From contig JADZEM010000184.1 of NCBI GenBank assembly GCA_020850535.1, forward strand, positions 1-39,677: a DNA stretch of 39,677 nucleotides, read 5' to 3'. Source of the DNA: Chloroflexota bacterium. Its GTDB lineage: Bacteria > Chloroflexota > UBA6077 > JACCZL01. How positions within the stretch are numbered: the first letter of the stretch is position 1; every line of letters starts with the position of its first letter. The notes beneath the pieces are model-generated. The model was not told where the DNA came from. It worked only from the letters and a program-made list of their open reading frames with translations, and searched no databases. Both the position numbers and the translations under genes were made by a program. Below, piece after piece: positions 6,626 through 39,273 of the stretch.

Positions 6626-9007
6626 TCAGCGGCGGCGCGGCTGGGCCGTCGGGGTTGGCCGCTGGCGGGCAGGCTCCTGGAGCCCCTTGCGTGGGCCGCT
6701 GTTCGACGAGAACTTCGTGGAGTATTCCAGGCGAGGGCGGTCGTCGGTGATGATCTGGCCGGGGCCGACGCGCGCTTCAAGGGTGGCGCGGTCTGCGACG
6801 TACATCTTGCGGACGTCGTCGCCGGAGCGGATGTTCACCTGTGACAGCGCGGCCCGGGCGATGGGCTGCTGAAACAGGCGATCCACCCAGGGCAGTGCCG
6901 GGTCCAACGGCTGGTCCGACCCGACCAGCAGGCTCCCGTCGAACCAGAGGCTGACGTGCGGGAACGCCTGCAGGAACGTGCGGATCATCAGGTTGTGATC
7001 CTCGTCGGGCAGATCGCGGTTGACCCACTGCAGCATCAGGCCGCCGGGGTTCAGCGAGCGGCGCGCCAGCCGGTAGTACTCGATGGAGTAGAGGTTCGTG
7101 CTGCCGGCGTGGGTCGGCCAGATCGCATCGGCGGTGATCACGTCGTAGGTGTGGCCGCCGACCAGCAGGTGGTTGCGGCCATCGTCCACCAGCATCGTGA
7201 CGTTCGGGCGCTCGGTGACGGCGTAGTTCACGTCGCGGAACCAGTCCGCGCCCCGCACCACGCTCTGCGACAGCTCGACCACGGTGATCTGTGCGCCGTC
7301 GTAGCGGGTGGTGGCCCCGGCCGTCGCGCCGCCGCCCAGGCCGACCACCAGGACCTGCTTCGGCTGCGGGTGGAGCAGCATCGGCAGGTGCCCGAGCATC
7401 CGGTGGAAGAAGACCATCCAGTCGGCGTCGTTCGCCTGGTGATGGTGGTTCATGTACATCGCCAGGTGCTCGTCGCGGTCACGGGTGATGGTGACGGTCG
7501 TCTCCAGGCCCTCTTCCGACCAGAGGATCCGCTCGCCGGGGAAGCGGGCGGCCAGCAGGTCGGCGTAGGCGCGCGGCGCGGCGGCTCCCAGTACCCCGAC
7601 CACCAGCAGGCCCACCAGCGCCGCCGACAGGCGCGTGCGCGTCGGGGTCCAGGAGTCGGCGGCGAGCGTCAGGACGGCCGCCAGCACGTTGAGGCCGGCC
7701 AGCAGCGTCAGGGTGAGGTTGCTGCCGAGCGTGGGCACGAGCAGGAAGCCGGCTGAGAGCGCCCCGAAGATCGCGCCGAACACGTTGGCGGCGTACAGCG
7801 AGCCGAGCCGCTTCCCGACGCTCTCGCCGCCGGCCGTGAAGAGGGTCACCGCCAGCGGAAAGCTCATGCCCAGGAAGAGGGCCGGCGGGAACATGGCGGT
7901 GAACGCCAGCACGCCCATCGCGAAGATCGACGGCCCCTCCTCGGTCGCAAACCCGAGGGCCACGAGCAGCGGCTCCATGCGAGCCAACGCCTGGAGCGCC
8001 AGCAGCGAGCTGACAGCTACCAGTGCCTGGAGCGCCACCAGGGCCAGCGGTCCGTTCTTCGCACGTCGGAGGAACGGGCTGACAGCCGCGCTCCCGAGGG
8101 TGATCCCGAGCAGGAACGCCGCCAGCATCACCGTGAAGGCGTAGGTGGTGGTCTCCAGGAACAGCACCAGCAGGCGGGTCCAGACGACCTCGTAGGCCAG
8201 CGAGCAGAACCCGGAGACTCCCAGGAGGAACGGCAACAGGCGAAGCAGCGTCGGCGGGCAGCGTACGTCGGCTGTCGCGGCGGCGTGCGGCGCGTCGGCG
8301 GCCTGGGCGGGCTGGGCCGCCTGCCGGCTCACCAGCACCGAGAGCAGCCCAGCGACGACGTTCAGGGCGGCGGCGGTCCCAATCGAGCCGCGCACACCCA
8401 GCTCGCCGATCAAGAGGAAGCCGGCTGCCAGCGTGCCGACGACGGCTCCGAACGTGTTGATGGCGTAGAGCAGGCCGATGGCCCGGCCGCCGTCGTCGCG
8501 CGATCCGAGCGCGGCCTTGACCACCAGCGGGAAGCTTGCGCCCATCAGGGCGGTTGGCGCCAGCAGGACGGCGAACGCGATGGCGAACCGCAGCACCGGG
8601 GCCAGGGCGCTCCCACCGACGGTCCGGTACAGCGGCCCGTAGACCTCTTGCAGGCTGGCGAACGCGATGGGTGTCAGCAGGCCGGTCACGCCGATCAGGA
8701 TCTCGACGACGCCGTACCAGAGCAGCGGCGAGCGCACCCGGTCCGCCACGCGTCCGGCCACGTACCCGCCGAGCGCCAGCCCGGCCATGAACGCCGCCAG
8801 CACCGTGGCCGTCGCGTAGGCGCTGACGCCGAACACCAGCGCCAACTGTCGCTGCCAGAGCACCTGGTAGATCAGGCCGCTGGCGCCGGAGAGCAGGAAG
8901 ACCAGCAGGAGCAGGCCGAACGCGCCCGAGGTCAGACTGATGGCGGGCAGGACGCGGGCAGGAGCCAGCGGCGCGCGGGCCTCGGCCTCCGAAAGCGATG
9001 ACGACAT
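6626..9007 (-). CDS. Fused MFS-like membrane domain / spermidine synthase-like methyltransferase-fold protein
   Basis: The protein has 793 residues in two parts. Residues about 28-500 form many hydrophobic helices with MFS-like repeats (note the LGGYVAGRVADR loop). Residues about 520-765 form a Rossmann domain of the polyamine aminopropyltransferase family, with the cofactor loop GLGGGATAG (556-564) and VDDGRNHL (607-614). The catalytic DxxDP-type motif is altered to DAIWP (627-631), so true spermidine synthesis is doubtful. The tail is short and rich in Pro, Arg and Gln. Such fusions are common in Chloroflexi, Planctomycetes and Proteobacteria, with unclear function. It starts 3 bp after the methyltransferase stop with no Shine-Dalgarno, so translation is probably coupled. 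Confidence 0.8.
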   Translation of the reverse strand: MSSSLSEAEARAPLAPARVLPAISLTSGAFGLLLLVFLLSGASGLIYQVLWQRQLALVFGVSAYATATVLAAFMAGLALGGYVAGRVADRVRSPLLWYGVVEILIGVTGLLTPIAFASLQEVYGPLYRTVGGSALAPVLRFAIAFAVLLAPTALMGASFPLVVKAALGSRDDGGRAIGLLYAINTFGAVVGTLAAGFLLIGELGVRGSIGTAAALNVVAGLLSVLVSRQAAQPAQAADAPHAAATADVRCPPTLLRLLPFLLGVSGFCSLAYEVVWTRLLVLFLETTTYAFTVMLAAFLLGITLGSAAVSPFLRRAKNGPLALVALQALVAVSSLLALQALARMEPLLVALGFATEEGPSIFAMGVLAFTAMFPPALFLGMSFPLAVTLFTAGGESVGKRLGSLYAANVFGAIFGALSAGFLLVPTLGSNLTLTLLAGLNVLAAVLTLAADSWTPTRTRLSAALVGLLVVGVLGAAAPRAYADLLAARFPGERILWSEEGLETTVTITRDRDEHLAMYMNHHHQANDADWMVFFHRMLGHLPMLLHPQPKQVLVVGLGGGATAGATTRYDGAQITVVELSQSVVRGADWFRDVNYAVTERPNVTMLVDDGRNHLLVGGHTYDVITADAIWPTHAGSTNLYSIEYYRLARRSLNPGGLMLQWVNRDLPDEDHNLMIRTFLQAFPHVSLWFDGSLLVGSDQPLDPALPWVDRLFQQPIARAALSQVNIRSGDDVRKMYVADRATLEARVGPGQIITDDRPRLEYSTKFSSNSGPRKGLQEPARQRPTPTAQPRRR

Positions 9008-33279: not shown

Positions 33280-33633
33280 CTAGAGTTCGAAGGTGTATCG
33301 AATGCAGCCAGCCAGCGCCTGCATCGTGTGCGGCCCAATGCGCCCGAGGCGTCTGGTGATCAGTCCTCGGTGCAGCGTGACAAGCTTGTCCAGGCGAATC
33401 CGCGAAGGCACCTTAAGGCCGGTTGCCGAGAATTCCGGATCCGAAGGAAGCATCGGGTGACTGGACGGTGATATCAGGCCAACGGCCTGTGACGTGACAA
33501 TGGCCAGGAGCAAGTCGTCTGACTCGATTCGCCCGACGATGACTGCAGGACGCCGCTTTGCCCCGGTGAGGTCGGTGAACGGAAACGGCACCAGGACGAG
33601 GTCTCCTCAGGAGAGGGGGCGTCCGCCGGTCAC
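33280..33633 (-). pseudogene. MazF/PemK-type toxin interrupted by an early TGA
   Basis: The natural start is GTG at 33631-33633, overlapping the antitoxin stop by 4 bp (GTGA). The frame reads MTGGRPLS, then TGA (33607-33609, codon 9), then GDLVLVPFPFTDLTGAKR to the end, about 117 codons in all. G-D-(L/I)-V-L-V-P-F-P-F-T-D-L is the classic first strand of MazF/PemK RNA interferases, and KRRPAVIV and IRLDKLVTLHRGLI also fit. The stop separates the start from the conserved strand. Re-initiation at the GTG at 33591 would yield 103 residues starting at PFPF, missing GDLVL. It is probably inactive, or a single C-to-T change or sequencing error hits an otherwise intact toxin. Confidence 0.75.
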
Positions 33634-33845
33634 ACACGCTCCCCGTCTTCATCGTTGTACAGATCGGGCTCATCGTGGAGCCAATCAAATGCGCCGCCCG
33701 TTTGCGCGACCGCTGCCAGATCGTCCATCTGAGACTCGTCGATCACAACAACCACACGGTGGTCGCCGGGTTGGATGTCGGCTGGAAGATCGACAGTCAG
33801 CTTGCGGTCTTCGGAGACTTTGCCGCGTGTCTGAATCGCGCGCAT
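33630..33845 (-). CDS. Antitoxin partner of the MazF/PemK-type toxin
   Basis: The start ATG 33845 (MRAIQTRGKV) gives 71 residues; a GTG at 33884 would add 13 unremarkable residues. RGKVSEDRKLTVDLPADI looks like the N-terminal strand of small antitoxins that precede MazF-type toxins, and the C-terminus (DWLHDEPDLYNDEDGERV) is acidic, as expected of a toxin-binding tail. GGAFDWL is a plausible toxin-contact segment. The stop codon overlaps the toxin GTG, the usual coupled layout. Confidence 0.72.
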   Translation of the reverse strand: MRAIQTRGKVSEDRKLTVDLPADIQPGDHRVVVVIDESQMDDLAAVAQTGGAFDWLHDEPDLYNDEDGERV

Positions 33846-33986
33846 CCTACCGCCCCCGTTACGGAGATACTGGCTCCTACCCACTATCGTACCGGTCCGA
33901 TGTACTCAGTTCCTAGCGACCTGAGGAGTGTGCTAATCTGATACCAATTCGAGGTCTTCATTCCGGGCATCGGCTACCATCCGCCT

Positions 33987-34388
33987 ATGAAGACTGTGCT
34001 TCTCACTCTCGATACGCGCGCCCAGCGCTTTACCGATCTGACTGCCGCCGTCGCACAGTTCTGTCGGCCGCTGGGCGATGGGCTGGTCAACGTCTTCGCG
34101 CCGCACGCGACCGTCGGGCTGGCGCTGATGGAGACTGGCTCAGGCTCGGAGCCGGATCTCGAAGAGGCGCTCGGGCGGCTGCTCCCGCGTGACGACCGCT
34201 GGACCCACCGGCACGGCGCGCGCGGTCACGGCGCGGACCACGTCCTGCCCGCGTTTGTCAGCCCCTCGCTGGTGGTCCCCGTCTTCGAGGGCCGCATGGC
34301 GCTCGGGACGTGGCAGTCCATCGTGCTGGTCGATCTCAACGTCGACAACCCGGTGCGGCAGGTCCGCCTCAGCTTCCTCGTGGGCTGA
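33987..34388 (+). CDS. yjbQ: YjbQ/UPF0047 family protein
   Basis: The protein has 133 residues, the usual family length. The family pattern is visible: VFAPHATVGLALMETG near 37-51, DDRWTHRHGARGHGADHVLPAFV (about 68-90), and GTWQSIVLVDLN near the end, with several His residues that form the conserved pocket. The family is called secondary thiamine-phosphate synthase from genetic evidence in E. coli; its native role is unsettled. No Shine-Dalgarno is present. A TACCAT sits six bases before ATG, which could be a -10 element of a leaderless transcript. The last 20 bp overlap the convergent HAMP gene. Confidence 0.85.
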   Translation: MKTVLLTLDTRAQRFTDLTAAVAQFCRPLGDGLVNVFAPHATVGLALMETGSGSEPDLEEALGRLLPRDDRWTHRHGARGHGADHVLPAFVSPSLVVPVFEGRMALGTWQSIVLVDLNVDNPVRQVRLSFLVG

Positions 34389-34890
34389 GGGGCGGGCTGC
34401 CGGCGCTCGCCCTGGCCGTGGCCTCGCTGGCCGCGGACGGCTCCAGGTCGAGTACGAGATCGGCCGGATCGGGCGGCGTGTTCGGGGGTGGGCATCCGCA
34501 CGCCGGCGGCGCACTGCGCAGGCGGATGATGCGCGCCAGCGCCGCGTCGTACCGCACCAGCACCTCGTTCATGATGACGACGAGGTTGCCCACGTCGTCG
34601 CGTGGGCCAGGGTAGAAGCAGCGACCGTCGAGCTGCCCGTGGACGACGATCCGCCGGGCGGTGCGCGTCACGTCGCGGACGGGCGCGTAGGCGAGGCGCG
34701 CCAGCACCCAGGCGATGGGCGCGAAGAGGGTCAGCAGCAGGGTGCTGGCGAGCAGGAGCGTCACCCACAGTGACGACGGGGCGACGGCCATAGCCGGCCC
34801 GGCCAGCAGGACGGTCAGCCCGCTCAACGCCAGCAGCAGGGCGGCGGCGCAGACCATCGCGCCGAGCCACAGCTTGAACCGTATCGACAT
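34369..34890 (-). CDS. Small two-helix membrane protein with HAMP domain
   Basis: The protein has 173 residues, with GGAG six bases before ATG. Two hydrophobic helices (about 7-32 and 40-66) are followed by a HAMP-like segment, APVRDVTRTARRIVVHG then PRDDVGNLVVIMNEVLVRY (about 69-117), with the Pro and the (D/E)-V-G landmarks in place. A disordered Pro/Ala-rich tail follows. No kinase, cyclase or chemoreceptor output domain is attached, so it could be a signalling adaptor. It is the last gene of the five-gene minus-strand run, 66 bp after the cyclic-nucleotide-binding gene. Confidence 0.7.
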   Translation of the reverse strand: MSIRFKLWLGAMVCAAALLLALSGLTVLLAGPAMAVAPSSLWVTLLLASTLLLTLFAPIAWVLARLAYAPVRDVTRTARRIVVHGQLDGRCFYPGPRDDVGNLVVIMNEVLVRYDAALARIIRLRSAPPACGCPPPNTPPDPADLVLDLEPSAASEATARASAGSPPLSPRGS

Positions 34891-34956
34891 GCCGATCTCC
34901 CTCGTCTGGAAGGCTACACCAGACCAGGGGCGAGCGGCGCGGCTCGGGCTGGCGGC

Positions 34957-35421
34957 TCAGGCGAGCGTGGACGTGGCGTCGCGGGCCGTCAGCGATGCCA
35001 GCCGCTCGTCCAGGATGCGGATGCGCCGGGCCAGCACCCGGATCAGCTCGATGGACAGCTCCGGGTACCGCCGCAGCTCCTGGATCAGCTCCCAGCGTGA
35101 GAGCAGCGCGCAGCGGACCGGTGTGACGGCCACCACCGACGAGGACCGGGTGTCATCGTCGAGCACGGCCATCTCGCCGAAGATGTCGCCTTCGTCCAGG
35201 CGGGCCAGGATGACCGCCTTTCCGCCCTCTTCCGGCTCGCGCGACACATCGACCTGCCCGTCCAGGATCAGGTAGAGTGCCACCGCCGACGTCCCCTGAC
35301 GGAGAATGGTGGTGCCGGGGTCGAAGCGCCGGATCGTCATGAGATCGCCGATGCGGGAGCGCTGACGCTCGTCCAGCGGGGCGAACAGCGGAGCGGTTCG
35401 GAGCGCCGTTTCGAGGTTCAT
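34957..35421 (-). CDS. Stand-alone cyclic nucleotide-binding domain protein
   Basis: The protein has 154 residues and is almost entirely one cNMP-binding (CAP_ED) domain. The beta roll shows GTTILRQGTSAVALYLILDG, and the phosphate-binding cassette is GDIFGEMAVLDDDTRSSS with G82-E83 and R92-S93. A C-terminal helix (about 110-145) follows but no helix-turn-helix, so it is not a CRP-type regulator. It begins 8 bp after the GH3-type gene stop with GGGAG in the gap, clearly the same operon. It may bind cAMP or cGMP and regulate a partner protein. Confidence 0.85.
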   Translation of the reverse strand: MNLETALRTAPLFAPLDERQRSRIGDLMTIRRFDPGTTILRQGTSAVALYLILDGQVDVSREPEEGGKAVILARLDEGDIFGEMAVLDDDTRSSSVVAVTPVRCALLSRWELIQELRRYPELSIELIRVLARRIRILDERLASLTARDATSTLA

Positions 35422-35429
35422 CGCACTCC

Positions 35430-37109
35430 CTAGTCGGTCTCACGGACGACCGTGAACTGCTTTCCGAACTCACGGTCTGGCGTGAGGTGTGGGATCTTGA
35501 CCTGGGCCTCGGGCGCGCCGGCGCTCACACGGGCCTGCTTGTAGGCGTCGAACGTACCGGGCGCGACGATCTTCAGGACGGCCGGTCCGAGCCGCAACGA
35601 CTCGCGCTTTGTCTCGTACTCGACGTTCTCGGTGCAGAGGGCATGATCGATCTGCCCGGCCAGCCCGCGCAACTGCTCGTCGGAGAGATCCTGCTTCAGC
35701 TCCAGGTAGAAGGCGTAGCGGGGCGGCGAGTCGAACTGTGGGACCGCTGCGAAGTGCCGAATCGCGTCCTCCCACTCGGTGCCCTCGACCGTCGCCATCA
35801 TCGCCGCCGTCACCTGCTGCTCGGCCAGCTTCTCGCCCGTCATCGAGGTCATCCCCCGACCTTTGCGGACGAACTCGATCAACGGCACGTCGTGGTAGAA
35901 GTCCACGACCCGGATGACGTCGTTGATGTCGTAGCGGTACAGGCCGGCCGAGGTCGTGAAGAGGATGTAGTAGTCACGGTTCGGCTGCAGCTCGGCGGCC
36001 GTCAGAACGGGCGGGTTGGCCTGGTCCCGCGCCTCGACGGGGATGAACTCGAAGAAGCTGGTGGTGACGGCCAGTGCGCCAGCCGAGCCAGCATCGGTCA
36101 GCGGGATCGAGCCGCAGCCCTCGCTGGCGAGGTAGCCACGGTCGCGGATCGGCAGGTTCGGGAACCAGCGGCGCAACTGGCGGAAGTAGAGCGGCATCGT
36201 GCCGCCCTTCCAGCAGAGCACCGTGGCCAGGTCCGGCCAGATCTCCAGCGGACGGAGCTCGCCGCTGTTGCGGACCAGGGCGGCCAACTCGTCGGCCCGG
36301 CGGGGGTTTGGCGCGAGCCGGGCGCTGACGACGCGGTCCAGCCAGTCCGGCAGCGGCCCGAGGGCGTTCGCCGTCCCGTTCCGCACGTCGCGGATCAGCT
36401 CCTCGCGGTACTGCTGGAGCTTCTCGCAGAGCAGCACGATGCTGCTGGGGTTCAAGGACGAGATGGCGGTCAGCGGCGCGTTCAGCGCCATCCGCAGCGT
36501 CAGGTAGTACTTCAGCTCGATGTTGGTGATCAGCGCGATCTCATACGGCAGTGCGAAACGGCTGCGGACCAGCGACGGCTGCCGCTTGACCACGAACCCG
36601 GACATCGCGCCGTAGGGGATGCCTGCCGAGGTCCGGCCCTCCACGTCGCGGCTGGAGGTGACCATGAACTGGCCGGCCCCGGCCTCCGGGTGATCTTCGA
36701 GCACGCGCCAGGTGTGGGTCTGAACGGCGTGGTTGACCTCGGCCAGGGACGAGGTGGTCACGGGGATGAACTTGGCCTTGCCGGTCGTGCCGCTGGTGGT
36801 GGCGAACATCAGCGGCGACTCGGCAGTCAGCACGTTCTGCTCGCCGGCCGTCATGCGGTCGATGTATGGCGACAGGTTCTCATACGTGTTGATCGGCACG
36901 TTCCGCTGGTAGTCGCCGATGTTCCGGATGCTGCCGAAGCCGAAGCGCTTGCCGTACTCGGTGTCGCGGTGCGCCCGGATGATGCTCAGCAGCTTCTTCT
37001 CCTGCGCGACTGTCGCGTTGTAGGTCGCATCCTCGAAGCGCCGAGCGTCGGAGAACCAGCGCCACAGCTGCGTGACCATCACAGCGGTTGTCGCGCGTCG
37101 GGTGTTCAT
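35430..37109 (-). CDS. GH3-family acyl-acid amido synthetase (auxin-responsive GH3-like)
   Basis: The start ATG 37109 (MNTRRATTAV) has GGAGG nine bases upstream; a TTG three codons earlier is possible. The protein has 559 residues, near the plant GH3 length. The adenylate-forming motif is FATTSGTTGKAKFIPVT (SGTTGK at about 106-111). Further GH3 features are YLASEGCGSIPL, the YYILFTTSAGLYRYDINDVIRV block and GMTSMTGEKLAEQQV. Plant members activate a carboxylate (auxin, jasmonate, benzoate) with ATP and join it to an amino acid. Bacterial members are poorly characterised. It lies 24 bp after the enolase gene in a five-gene operon. Confidence 0.88.
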   Translation of the reverse strand: MNTRRATTAVMVTQLWRWFSDARRFEDATYNATVAQEKKLLSIIRAHRDTEYGKRFGFGSIRNIGDYQRNVPINTYENLSPYIDRMTAGEQNVLTAESPLMFATTSGTTGKAKFIPVTTSSLAEVNHAVQTHTWRVLEDHPEAGAGQFMVTSSRDVEGRTSAGIPYGAMSGFVVKRQPSLVRSRFALPYEIALITNIELKYYLTLRMALNAPLTAISSLNPSSIVLLCEKLQQYREELIRDVRNGTANALGPLPDWLDRVVSARLAPNPRRADELAALVRNSGELRPLEIWPDLATVLCWKGGTMPLYFRQLRRWFPNLPIRDRGYLASEGCGSIPLTDAGSAGALAVTTSFFEFIPVEARDQANPPVLTAAELQPNRDYYILFTTSAGLYRYDINDVIRVVDFYHDVPLIEFVRKGRGMTSMTGEKLAEQQVTAAMMATVEGTEWEDAIRHFAAVPQFDSPPRYAFYLELKQDLSDEQLRGLAGQIDHALCTENVEYETKRESLRLGPAVLKIVAPGTFDAYKQARVSAGAPEAQVKIPHLTPDREFGKQFTVVRETD

Positions 37110-37133
37110 CGTTCTCAACCTCCGTTCGGCGTC

Positions 37134-38318
37134 TCAGGAGACGCGCAGGGTTCGCATCGATGCGCCGACGACGCGGTGCGACTGCGAGAGTTCGAAGAGC
37201 GTGTCCAGGCGAACGTGTACGCCAAGTCCCGGCCCGGCAAGCGCGTCGCCGCGGCCTCCAGGCCTGACCGTCAGGTTCTCGGCGGTCAGATCCCGGCGGA
37301 GCAAGAACAGGTTGTCCGCCCCCTCGTGATGGCGGAAGCCCGGCTGCGCGACAGCGGCCACGAGCCGCCCGGCTGCGGTCAGGATACCGCTCTCCCCGAC
37401 CTGTGCGCCTAGCTGACAGAACAGTCCAGACTGGCTTGCCAGCTCGACCAGCTCCAGGGCTGCCAGCGGCCCGCCGCACTTTGAGACGCGTACGTTCAGG
37501 ACGGTGCAGGCGTGGGCCTCGACCAGCCGGCGGGCGTCCGCCATGCTGCACAGCGACTCGTCCACGATGACGTCTTCAGGCAGGCCGGCGCTCAGGCGTC
37601 GGAGGCCTTCGACGTCGTCCGCGGGGACCGGCTGCTCGTAGGACACCAGGTCGTACGGGCGCAGCAGCTCGGCCATCTGGAACGCCTCATCGGCCGTCCA
37701 GGCGCAGTTGGCGTCGGCCCGCAGCTCCACGCCGCGCCCGAGGATCTGCCGCGCCAGCCGCACCGTCTTCAGATCGTGCTCGCGGCCCCGCCCGAGCTTC
37801 AGCTTGACGTCCTTGAAGCCGTACGTGCGGAAGAACAGCAGCATGCCGATCAGGGCCGCGCCGCTGGCGAACGGCGCGACGCCGCCGTAGGTCACCGTGT
37901 CACGGACGGCCCCACCCAGCAGATCGGCTGCCGAACGGCCGGTGGCCTTGCCGAGCGCGTCCAGCAGGGCGGTCTCGACGGCGCACCACGCGGCCCCGGG
38001 CGCCTGCTTGAACAGGTGGAGATCGTCCCGGAGGGCGCGCAGGCCGCGGACCACATCCTGGTCTGGCAACTGACGGGCGAGCAGGGCCGGGCCGTACTCG
38101 TCGGCCACGCGGTCGAGTGCGGTCTGGGCAGTCTCGCCGGTGACGTACTCGCGCGGGACGCCCTCGCCGAAGCCGATGCTGCCATCCGTCAGTTGGAGCA
38201 TCACGATCAGGTTGGTGGTGCTGGAGCGGCTGGCGAGGGCATGCCCGAAGCTGAACCGGAACGGCAGCTCCACGAGGTGCGCGGCAAGCCGCTGGATCCG
38301 CGGGCCATCAGCGCCCAT
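37134..38318 (-). CDS. Enolase-superfamily enzyme, muconate lactonizing/dipeptide epimerase-like
   Basis: The start ATG 38318 has GGAGG upstream and overlaps the hydrolase stop by 11 bp; the protein has 394 residues. An N-terminal capping domain precedes a TIM barrel. MLE-subgroup landmarks are KxK (K172, K174 in KLKLG), metal ligands D202 (RADANCAW), E228 (SYEQPV) and D253 (IVDES), and NVRVSKCGG on the sixth strand. By hand alignment the usual catalytic Lys of that strand is Arg (R277), with K280 at a normally non-catalytic place. Family members are cycloisomerases, N-acylamino-acid racemases and dipeptide epimerases. Next to a GH3-type synthetase, an acyl-amino-acid substrate is an attractive guess. 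Confidence 0.83.
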   Translation of the reverse strand: MGADGPRIQRLAAHLVELPFRFSFGHALASRSSTTNLIVMLQLTDGSIGFGEGVPREYVTGETAQTALDRVADEYGPALLARQLPDQDVVRGLRALRDDLHLFKQAPGAAWCAVETALLDALGKATGRSAADLLGGAVRDTVTYGGVAPFASGAALIGMLLFFRTYGFKDVKLKLGRGREHDLKTVRLARQILGRGVELRADANCAWTADEAFQMAELLRPYDLVSYEQPVPADDVEGLRRLSAGLPEDVIVDESLCSMADARRLVEAHACTVLNVRVSKCGGPLAALELVELASQSGLFCQLGAQVGESGILTAAGRLVAAVAQPGFRHHEGADNLFLLRRDLTAENLTVRPGGRGDALAGPGLGVHVRLDTLFELSQSHRVVGASMRTLRVS

Positions 38319-39273
38319 GACGGCCCTCCGAAGCGGCCTCGCCGGCGGCATGCTGTGCGATCTGGCGTCGGAGCCAGCCCAGCAGGTCGGCGCGGTAGGC
38401 GCGCAACGTCGGCTCCGGCTCGAAGTCGAGGGTGTGGGAGGCGTCGGGGTAGGTGATGGCCGTGCGATCTGGCGCCAGGAGGCCGCCGAGCCAGCGGCAC
38501 GAGGCGGCGGCGTCCATGATCGGGTCGCGCTCGCCGATCTGCAGCAGGATGGGCAGGCTCAGGCGGGCAGCGTACTGATCCCGCGCCCGGTCCAGCCGGC
38601 GCGTCTCCCAGAAGAAGCGGGCCGAGGCTGTCAGCAGCCGGTAGGCGTCCTGCCGGATGTACGCGCGGTACTCTTCGTCGTCGGTGTAGTTCTCGGGGAT
38701 CAGCGGGATCTGGATCTGGCGCTCTGGCCGCGTGAGCCGCCCGAGCAACACACGAAGCTTCCTGAACGGGCTGAGATCGACCTTCGGGAAGAGGCCCGGG
38801 CCGTGGAGCAGCAGCCCGGCCAGCCGCGACTGCTGCCCGGCGGCGTAGGCCAGGGCCAGCTTGGCGGCCCAGCTCGACCCGACCAGGAACAGCGGCGTCT
38901 CAGGGTGGCGGATCTCCACGAGGCAGACCACGCGGTCCAGGTCGTGGAGCAACTGGCTGACGCTCGGCGTGTGGCCCCGTAGACCGCCGCTCAGGCCGGA
39001 GCCGCGCCGGTCAGGTGCGTAGACGGCGATGCCGTTCCCCGCGAGGAAGCCGGCCGTCTCGGCGAACCACGCGCCGTGGCTGGCGATGCCGTGCAGGAAG
39101 ACCAGCGCGCCGGCAACCGGCCGGTCGGTCGGGAGCCAGGAGCGGTAGTGCAGGGACACACCGTCGCAGGCCGCGAGGCGGGTGCGGCTGGCGACGTACC
39201 GGCCGCCGGCGGGCGCCGGGAATGAGTGCCGCTCTGCCGTGTCCGTGATCGCTGGCGCTTGCAGCTGCCTCAT
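38308..39273 (-). CDS. Alpha/beta hydrolase (monoacylglycerol lipase/lysophospholipase-like)
   Basis: The start ATG 39273 (MRQLQAPAIT) has GAGG eight bases upstream; the protein has 321 residues. The frame is open further upstream without family sequence. The oxyanion-hole motif is FLHGIASHG (59-67), APDRRGSGLSGG is typical of lysophospholipase-like hydrolases, and the nucleophile elbow VGSSWA has S134 with Ala in place of the last Gly. The acid is in IGERDPI and the His in DASHTLDF. It should cleave an ester or possibly an amide of a lipid-like or small aromatic acid. It is the first gene of the five-gene operon and overlaps the enolase start by 11 bp. Confidence 0.83.
   Translation of the reverse strand: MRQLQAPAITDTAERHSFPAPAGGRYVASRTRLAACDGVSLHYRSWLPTDRPVAGALVFLHGIASHGAWFAETAGFLAGNGIAVYAPDRRGSGLSGGLRGHTPSVSQLLHDLDRVVCLVEIRHPETPLFLVGSSWAAKLALAYAAGQQSRLAGLLLHGPGLFPKVDLSPFRKLRVLLGRLTRPERQIQIPLIPENYTDDEEYRAYIRQDAYRLLTASARFFWETRRLDRARDQYAARLSLPILLQIGERDPIMDAAASCRWLGGLLAPDRTAITYPDASHTLDFEPEPTLRAYRADLLGWLRRQIAQHAAGEAASEGRHGR

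Follow-up and report, generated by a model that had tools for sequence, protein, structure and literature searches.

A candidate GH3 and enolase-superfamily gene set for acyl-amino acid synthesis in Chloroflexota

Closest described systems and operon layout

The closest described bacterial system is that of Singulisphaera acidiphila, in which OlsH, a GH3 protein, and OlsI, an alpha/beta-hydrolase protein, make ornithine lipids (PMC12493201). OlsI acts as an O-acyltransferase, not as a hydrolase, and bacterial GH3 homologues gave more than 7500 hits in the same study (PMC12493201). In the literature searched, no characterised bacterial GH3 other than OlsH was met. None of the papers found there linked GH3 to an enolase-superfamily enzyme, and the gene set reported here was not found described.

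The window, i.e., the whole stretch of 39,677 nucleotides that was analysed, carries five genes on the minus strand at 34369-39273 by ORF calling, i.e., ABH, ENO, GH3, cNMP, and a HAMP-like gene. The recomputed intergenic distances, in the order from ABH to the HAMP-like gene, were -11, 24, 8, and 66 bp, exactly as in the preliminary description, and the tight operon noted there was confirmed. Upstream of ABH, only 404 bp remain before the contig end at 39677, and the operon could run further 5'. No exporter or fatty-acid gene was seen 5' of ABH, on the side that the contig end cuts. A sigma-70-type promoter and an intrinsic terminator were looked for in the operon, and neither was found. The arrangement is considered to be beyond chance because its core is found again in other genomes, where genes overlap and, in one case, are fused. 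Many catabolic-type genes, i.e., amidohydrolases, GH5, GH42, and FGGY kinase, were also present in the window.

As in the OlsH/OlsI system, GH3 and an alpha/beta hydrolase share the operon, and GH3 is expected to yield an N-acyl-amino acid (PMC12493201). Unlike that system, the window operon adds ENO and cNMP and is without OlsG, and the ABH nucleophile differs between genomes, being either Ser or Cys.

The GH3, ENO, and ABH enzymes

GH3 (35430..37109, minus strand; alternative TTG start at 37118) was recognized as a full-length acyl-acid amido synthetase. The N, central, and C domains were matched in Pfam with E-values of 1e-75, 5e-22, and 6e-20, and PF03321, PF23571, and PF23572 each scored above the cut-off. 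The nucleotide-binding motifs I-III (TSGTTGKAK, YLASE, and GLYRYDIND) and the hinge lysine (GEK) were present, and the key motif residues were invariant in an alignment of the window protein with six relatives of 28-52% identity. The three-domain architecture with ATP motifs is that of the plant enzymes JAR1 and GH3.12, but the window protein is distant from them (phmmer against JAR1, 1e-34, 123 bits) and its acyl-pocket residues differ. In the OlsH equivalog model (NCBIfam NF052613), it scored 140.6 bits, far under the cut-off of 620 bits. Five relatives scored 95-121 bits, and the G013 protein had no match at 1e-10. Family membership supports GH3 as a predicted amide-forming enzyme, and this bears out the earlier assignment as an enzyme joining carboxylic acids to amino acids.

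ENO (37134..38318, minus strand; alternative upstream start at 38351) showed the MR_MLE_C (6e-45) and MR_MLE_N (8e-7) domains in Pfam. The catalytic set of the MLE subgroup was complete, i.e., KxK in strand 2, D/E/D metal ligands, and K in strand 6, and K183/K185, D213, E239, D264, and K291 (405-aa numbering) were invariant in the alignments. The AF2 model had pLDDT 85 and pTM 0.88. Its top Foldseek match in the PDB was the N-succinyl Arg/Lys racemase of B. cereus, 2p88 (1.5e-31, TM 0.87), and VIA gave the same entry with Z 48.0 and rmsd 2.0 over 367 residues, followed by an entry at Z 46.9. Muconate enzymes trailed 2p88 by just 1-2 Z units. All of the 50 best VIA matches listed were enolase-superfamily (MLE/MR) structures, and the absence of others from that list carries no weight. 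ENO therefore resembles the N-acylamino-acid racemases, including the Thermus and Deinococcus enzymes, in fold, catalytic residues, and best structural match, but its identity is 25-27% and its partner genes are GH3 and ABH.

Two other groups of the subgroup are also near. With the dipeptide epimerases (AEE 1jpm and 3jva), ENO shares the MLE subgroup and a similar "TGE" loop, and 3jva is its best sequence match (6e-64 with a profile). The DxD motif at the end of strand 8 is the mark of dipeptide epimerases, and 1jpm carries D-F-D at this position. ENO lacks it, as 2p88 does: five of the six members have E-G-S/A instead and G013 has E-G-L, which is expected if the amine of the substrate is already acylated. 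Muconate cycloisomerase (TIGR02534) was the best NCBIfam model, at 132 bits versus a cut-off of 334.95, and the muconate/chloromuconate cycloisomerase model gave 161 and 154 bits in two relatives. The cycloisomerases themselves stood at Z 46-47, but catechol-pathway neighbours were not seen around ENO. From the model and the residues, ENO is a candidate N-acyl-amino-acid racemase or epimerase, with a narrow lead over the muconate cycloisomerases. The MLE subgroup proposed earlier was supported, with a structure like that of the N-acylamino-acid racemases named there, and the dipeptide-epimerase reading was not supported.

ABH (38308..39273, minus strand) was matched by Hydrolase_4 (E 7e-42, Pfam) and was closest to monoglyceride lipases (MGL) in phmmer (1e-15). 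The best Foldseek matches of its AF2 model (pLDDT 75) were the mycobacterial and human MGL. The GxSxG/Asp/His set of MGL-type hydrolases was found by alignment as S134, D250, and H280 with the nucleophile motif GSSWAAK, in which the final G of the pentapeptide is replaced by A (GSSWA). The D250 and H280 positions were invariant (alignment A6), and the nucleophile was Cys in three relatives, with the motifs GNCWGA and GHCFGA. Its nearest proteins, the monoglyceride lipases, act on fatty acyl chains. The earlier view of ABH as an acyl-handling enzyme is supported by sequence and model, but the cleavage proposed with it may instead be an acyl transfer, as with OlsI, the closest GH3-linked alpha/beta hydrolase to have been characterised.

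Conservation in relatives and accessory genes

Genome-scale sampling covered Chloroflexota (400 genomes). The ENO subfamily was found in 5/400 genomes, a rare and patchy distribution, and stood beside GH3 in all five, with a sixth adjacent case in G400. GH3 was found in 10/400 genomes. The preliminary description was to fall if gene order was not conserved in related genomes, and it withstood this check, with ENO and GH3 adjacent in six Chloroflexota genomes of different classes. The other three genes fared unequally. The order ABH-ENO-GH3 was observed in the window, L002/L043, and L038; no ABH was present in the ENO-GH3 transcription unit of G009, where one ABH adjoins a second GH3, and G013 and G014 had partners other than ABH. 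In L002, ABH and ENO are fused in a single protein of 693 aa; elsewhere, a haem-oxygenase-like domain is the fusion partner of ENO. The reading frames of ENO and GH3 share 4 bp in both L002 and L003, and those of GH3 and cNMP do so in L002.

The neighbours of the relatives were an FHA-ABC transporter (named from sequence alone) and a beta-ketoacyl synthase in L043, an MFS transporter in L042, and an ABC transporter, methyltransferase, carrier protein, AMP ligase, and UbiD in L035. These transporters and ketosynthase or carrier-protein genes suggest that the product is exported and derived from a fatty acid or polyketide.

The cNMP gene (34957..35421, minus strand) encodes a stand-alone cyclic-nucleotide-binding protein of 154 aa. 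PF00027 (cNMP_binding, E 1.1e-20) was its sole Pfam domain, with no CRP/FNR-type HTH DNA-binding domain, and its phosphate-binding cassette reads FGEMAVLDDDTRSS. Orthologues are found at the equivalent place in L002/L043 and L003/L042, so that cNMP was present at all three loci of the GH3 clade of the window that have a complete downstream side (window, L002, and L003). Twelve cyclase-domain matches were found in the genome, and the cyclic-nucleotide input proposed earlier is possible. 

The HAMP-like gene (34369..34890, minus strand) encodes a two-TM protein with two hydrophobic segments and a HAMP-like segment. It had no match in the Pfam search and matched only the TM/HAMP part of the histidine kinase MtrB (4.4e-7), which makes the label of HAMP membrane protein plausible, if weakly founded. 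No homologue was present at any other locus compared. It probably just adjoins the core genes without belonging to them, and the possible control function first suggested for it was not supported.

Proposed pathway, competing readings, and wider searches

The GH3-ENO set, often with a lipase-like ABH, occurs in a few soil-type Chloroflexota and probably builds a fatty acid–amino acid compound. Our preferred reading, held tentatively at a probability of roughly 45%, is that these genes form a small biosynthetic operon whose product is an acyl-amino-acid metabolite or an amino lipid. A carboxylic acid, probably fatty or polyketide-like, would be activated by GH3 with ATP and coupled to the amino group of an amino acid. 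ENO would remove and replace the alpha-proton of this product, so that the stereochemistry is set or inverted. ABH would form an acyl-enzyme through Ser, or Cys in the relatives, and transfer or remove an acyl group by analogy with OlsI. The cNMP protein could couple the pathway to the cyclic-nucleotide level. The analysis shows directly the gene content and order, their conservation, the ABH-ENO fusion, the intact catalytic motifs, and the nearest structures, whereas the sequence of reactions and an N-acyl-amino acid as the substrate of ENO are inferred. A bolder form of this pathway is doubtful, i.e., an obligate pair of GH3 ligase and ENO N-acyl-amino-acid epimerase giving a stereochemically programmed amino-lipid or acyl-amino-acid product and, with it, D-amino-acid lipids without ribosome or NRPS. 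Its finishing partners would be interchangeable (Ser/Cys alpha/beta-hydrolase acyltransferase, haem-oxygenase-like oxidase, or carrier-protein/AMP-ligase set), under cyclic-nucleotide gating. The GH3-ENO pairing is a concrete candidate for a second bacterial GH3 pathway, in which each enzyme should act on what the preceding one makes. If true, GH3 chemistry, now that of hormones and ornithine lipids, would come to include stereo-inverted acyl-amino acids, in the poorly known Chloroflexota.

The near tie of ENO with the cycloisomerases allows another reading, which is unlikely. ENO would catalyse either a lactonising cycloisomerisation or a syn-elimination and ABH would hydrolyse a lactone or an ester, like the pair of muconate cycloisomerase and dienelactone hydrolase (DLH), with GH3 activating the resulting acid. 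The muconate/chloromuconate model was the best NCBIfam model in three ENO members (132-161 bits), and the structure is almost as near to MLEs. The nucleophile of dienelactone hydrolase is Cys, as in the ABH relatives, and in G014 a member of the dienelactone hydrolase family is encoded 0.8 kb upstream. However, all model scores were far under their cut-offs, the ABH group is of the MGL and not the DLH family, and the neighbourhoods examined showed no ring-cleaving dioxygenase. GH3 is not known to act in the muconate/dienelactone pathway. Somewhat less likely again is a planctomycete-type ornithine or lysine lipid pathway, with an OlsH-like GH3, an OlsI-like ABH, and ENO only racemising the head group. 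The shared operon of GH3 and alpha/beta hydrolase (PMC12493201), the significant OlsH match, and the nearness of ENO to a racemase of basic amino acids, i.e., N-succinyl-Arg/Lys, agree with it, but no member tested reached a quarter of the OlsH cut-off and an OlsG-like methyltransferase is absent from the window operon. Enolase, racemase, and Chloroflexota are all unmentioned in PMC12493201.

A catabolic or salvage operon is improbable, lower still than the lipid pathway. ABH would release acids or amides, ENO would epimerise a peptide or N-acyl-amino acid, and GH3 would conjugate a by-product or toxic acid. The abundant catabolic-type genes of the window fit this reading, and MLE-subgroup epimerases are often found in peptide salvage. 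Nevertheless, ENO is without the dipeptide-epimerase motif, relatives adjoin transporters and carrier-protein/ketosynthase/AMP-ligase partners, and the genes are rare. The handling of plant hormone-like acids was raised in the preliminary description; taken as conjugation of auxin-, jasmonate-, or salicylate-like acids in a soil bacterium, it gained no specific support and is very improbable, although the GH3 family includes JAR1 and auxin-conjugating enzymes. GH3 is no nearer to the plant enzymes than to OlsH (123 versus 141 bits, by differing methods), and the closest bacterial GH3 to have been characterised yields N-acyl-ornithine lipids (PMC12493201). Four positions listed as jasmonate-binding in JAR1, i.e., F113, L117, L124, and F125 (PMC12493201), align by hand with V, S, A, and V in the window protein, and no auxin or jasmonate genes were recognized nearby. 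A menaquinone-like trio was rejected from the model scores and the distribution. ENO as MenC, an acid-activating enzyme for MenE, and the hydrolase as MenH agree in superfamily for two of three steps, and OSBS models matched ENO at 1e-28. But the scores were far under the cut-offs (OSBS, 98.8 versus 200.65; SHCHC-synthase, 20.3 versus 208.55), GH3 is not MenE, and presence in 5/400 genomes is unfit for a quinone pathway.

Viral contigs scanned with the GH3 alignment A4 gave no relative. By tblastn, 13 distant GH3s were found on plasmids, and two annotated plasmid regions, i.e., a Streptomyces polyketide cluster with thrS and a Citrobacter radical-SAM cluster, had no enolase adjoining GH3. A single-sequence scan of genome contigs gave two close relatives.

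Organization of the operon

Five consecutive ORFs were confirmed on the minus strand at 34369-39273, as the preliminary description had claimed, and the spacings of -11, 24, 8, and 66 bp were reproduced. Pfam domains were assigned to the first four, i.e., Hydrolase_4 to the MGL-type alpha/beta hydrolase (ABH, 39273-38308), MR_MLE N and C to the MLE-subgroup enolase-superfamily enzyme (ENO, 38318-37134), GH3, three domains of three, to the acyl-acid amido synthetase (GH3, 37109-35430), and cNMP_binding to the stand-alone cyclic-nucleotide-binding protein (cNMP, 35421-34957). In the Pfam search of the operon proteins, the fifth, HAMP-like gene (34890-34369) had no match. Its product has two hydrophobic segments and resembles the TM/HAMP region of MtrB only weakly. 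The gene is convergent with a downstream YjbQ-family gene (33987-34388). Upstream of ABH, the first gene, 404 bp remain before the contig end.

Elsewhere in the window, a PemK/MazF-like toxin ORF (33280-33591, minus strand) preceded by a RelN-antitoxin-like ORF (33630-33884, minus strand) is a probable toxin-antitoxin pair (33280-33884). A 793-aa protein (6626-9007, minus strand) has a spermidine-synthase-like domain fused to an MFS-type membrane domain.

Conservation and distribution

Scanning genome contigs with the GH3 protein recovered two Chloroflexota MAGs, and further genome searches added G084, G014, and G013. In JAICJW010000006.1 (genome G400), ABH and ENO are fused in one 693-aa ORF followed by GH3 and cNMP, with 4-bp overlaps at ENO/GH3 and at GH3/cNMP. 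JAFAOS010000471.1 (genome G009) has consecutive ENO, GH3, and cNMP. A few kb off, on the opposite strand, G009 carries another GH3, accompanied by an NAD-dependent epimerase family protein and an alpha/beta hydrolase of its own; a patatin-like phospholipase fused to a cNMP-binding domain (L042:17926-19701 of this locus) is convergent with the operon. The order in G084 is ABH-ENO-GH3, with GH3 interrupted by the contig end. In G014 (locus L034:6219-8135), an N-terminal PF14518 haem-oxygenase-like domain, possibly a diiron oxidase, is fused to ENO, and GH3 is directly downstream. G013 (locus L035:2805-11021) encodes a methyltransferase, GH3, ENO, a phosphopantetheine carrier protein, an AMP ligase, and a UbiD decarboxylase; an ABC transporter closely precedes them, and the GH3-ENO pair looks to be part of a compact natural-product cluster.

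Thus, ENO and GH3 lie side by side in six genomes, the window included, and the operon is real and conserved. ABH directly accompanies the pair in three genomes, and cNMP follows GH3 in all three downstream-complete loci of the window's GH3 clade (window, G400, and G009). The HAMP protein had also been proposed as a member, which was not upheld: no counterpart was found at the relatives' loci, and it should be excluded from the system.

GH3 and ENO were each searched in a set of 400 Chloroflexota genomes, with agreement between the two sets among the genomes listed. GH3 relatives occurred in 10 (E <= 1e-30) and the ENO subfamily in five (E <= 1e-70), every one with adjacent GH3; no member without GH3 was found in these genomes by the profile used. 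By plain counting, the chance of five random genomes all falling among the ten is 3e-9, a figure that is indicative only because the ENO profile was derived from GH3-linked members. Presence was patchy, i.e., one of seven genomes in the class of G084 and neither of the two listed family relatives of the window. The GH3 phylogeny united the sequences of the window, G009a, G084, and G400 in a single clade (support 99/99); G014 was placed outside it and G013 with Streptomyces GH3s. Therefore, the ENO-GH3 association predates the window clade or had multiple origins.

Predicted functions of the enzymes

The MLE-subgroup catalytic set of ENO is complete. Its AlphaFold model (pLDDT 85, pTM 0.88) best matched the N-succinyl Arg/Lys racemase 2p88 by Foldseek and VIA (Z 48.0; next 46.9), and in the sequence profile dipeptide epimerase 3jva and 2p88 tied. 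Dipeptide epimerases carry DxD (D-F-D in 1jpm), a motif that bears on the free amino terminus of their substrate, whereas ENO has E-G-S/A there, or E-G-L in G013. This replacement argues against a substrate whose amino terminus is free.

GH3 retains the full set of nucleotide motifs, with key residues invariant in all seven aligned sequences. ABH resembles monoglyceride lipases (moderate model, pLDDT 75). The window enzyme has a Ser nucleophile (GSSWA), whereas the three relatives have Cys at this position, a pattern consistent with acyl transfer. The FGE...RS cassette is retained in the cNMP proteins, and 12 cyclase-domain matches were found in the window's genome.

Proposed pathway and related GH3 systems

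The characterized precedent for pairing GH3 with an alpha/beta hydrolase is OlsH/OlsI of the ornithine-lipid pathway of Singulisphaera acidiphila. OlsH is a GH3 producing N-acyl-ornithine from ATP, ornithine, and free fatty acid, OlsI is an O-acyltransferase of the alpha/beta-hydrolase superfamily, and GH3 homologs of non-planctomycetes may use other amino acids (PMC12493201). The text of that study mentions neither an enolase nor Chloroflexota. On this basis, GH3, which from its family and intact motifs is predicted to adenylate an acid, would form an N-acyl-amino acid, ENO would epimerize it at the alpha position, and ABH would transfer or release an acyl group. Transporters and fatty-acid/polyketide-type genes neighboring the relatives' loci suggest that the product is exported or placed in the envelope. 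The earlier suggestion of plant hormone-like acids as substrates was not supported. The operon is undescribed in the literature searched and is best filed with GH3-based amino-lipid systems.

The window GH3 is not OlsH itself, as it scored 140.6 bits against the NCBIfam equivalog cut-off of 620. The relatives' GH3s scored 95-121 bits, and that of G013 had no match to the OlsH model in the NCBIfam search. GH3, hydrolase, and cNMP domains are together again in another clade, in genome G358, where an alpha/beta hydrolase-cNMP-binding domain fusion (L037:9851-11203) lies downstream of another GH3. On a Streptomyces plasmid (L031:1-14365), GH3 was found within a type I PKS cluster that also encodes a P450, an aminotransferase, and an additional thrS, possibly a self-resistance threonyl-tRNA synthetase.
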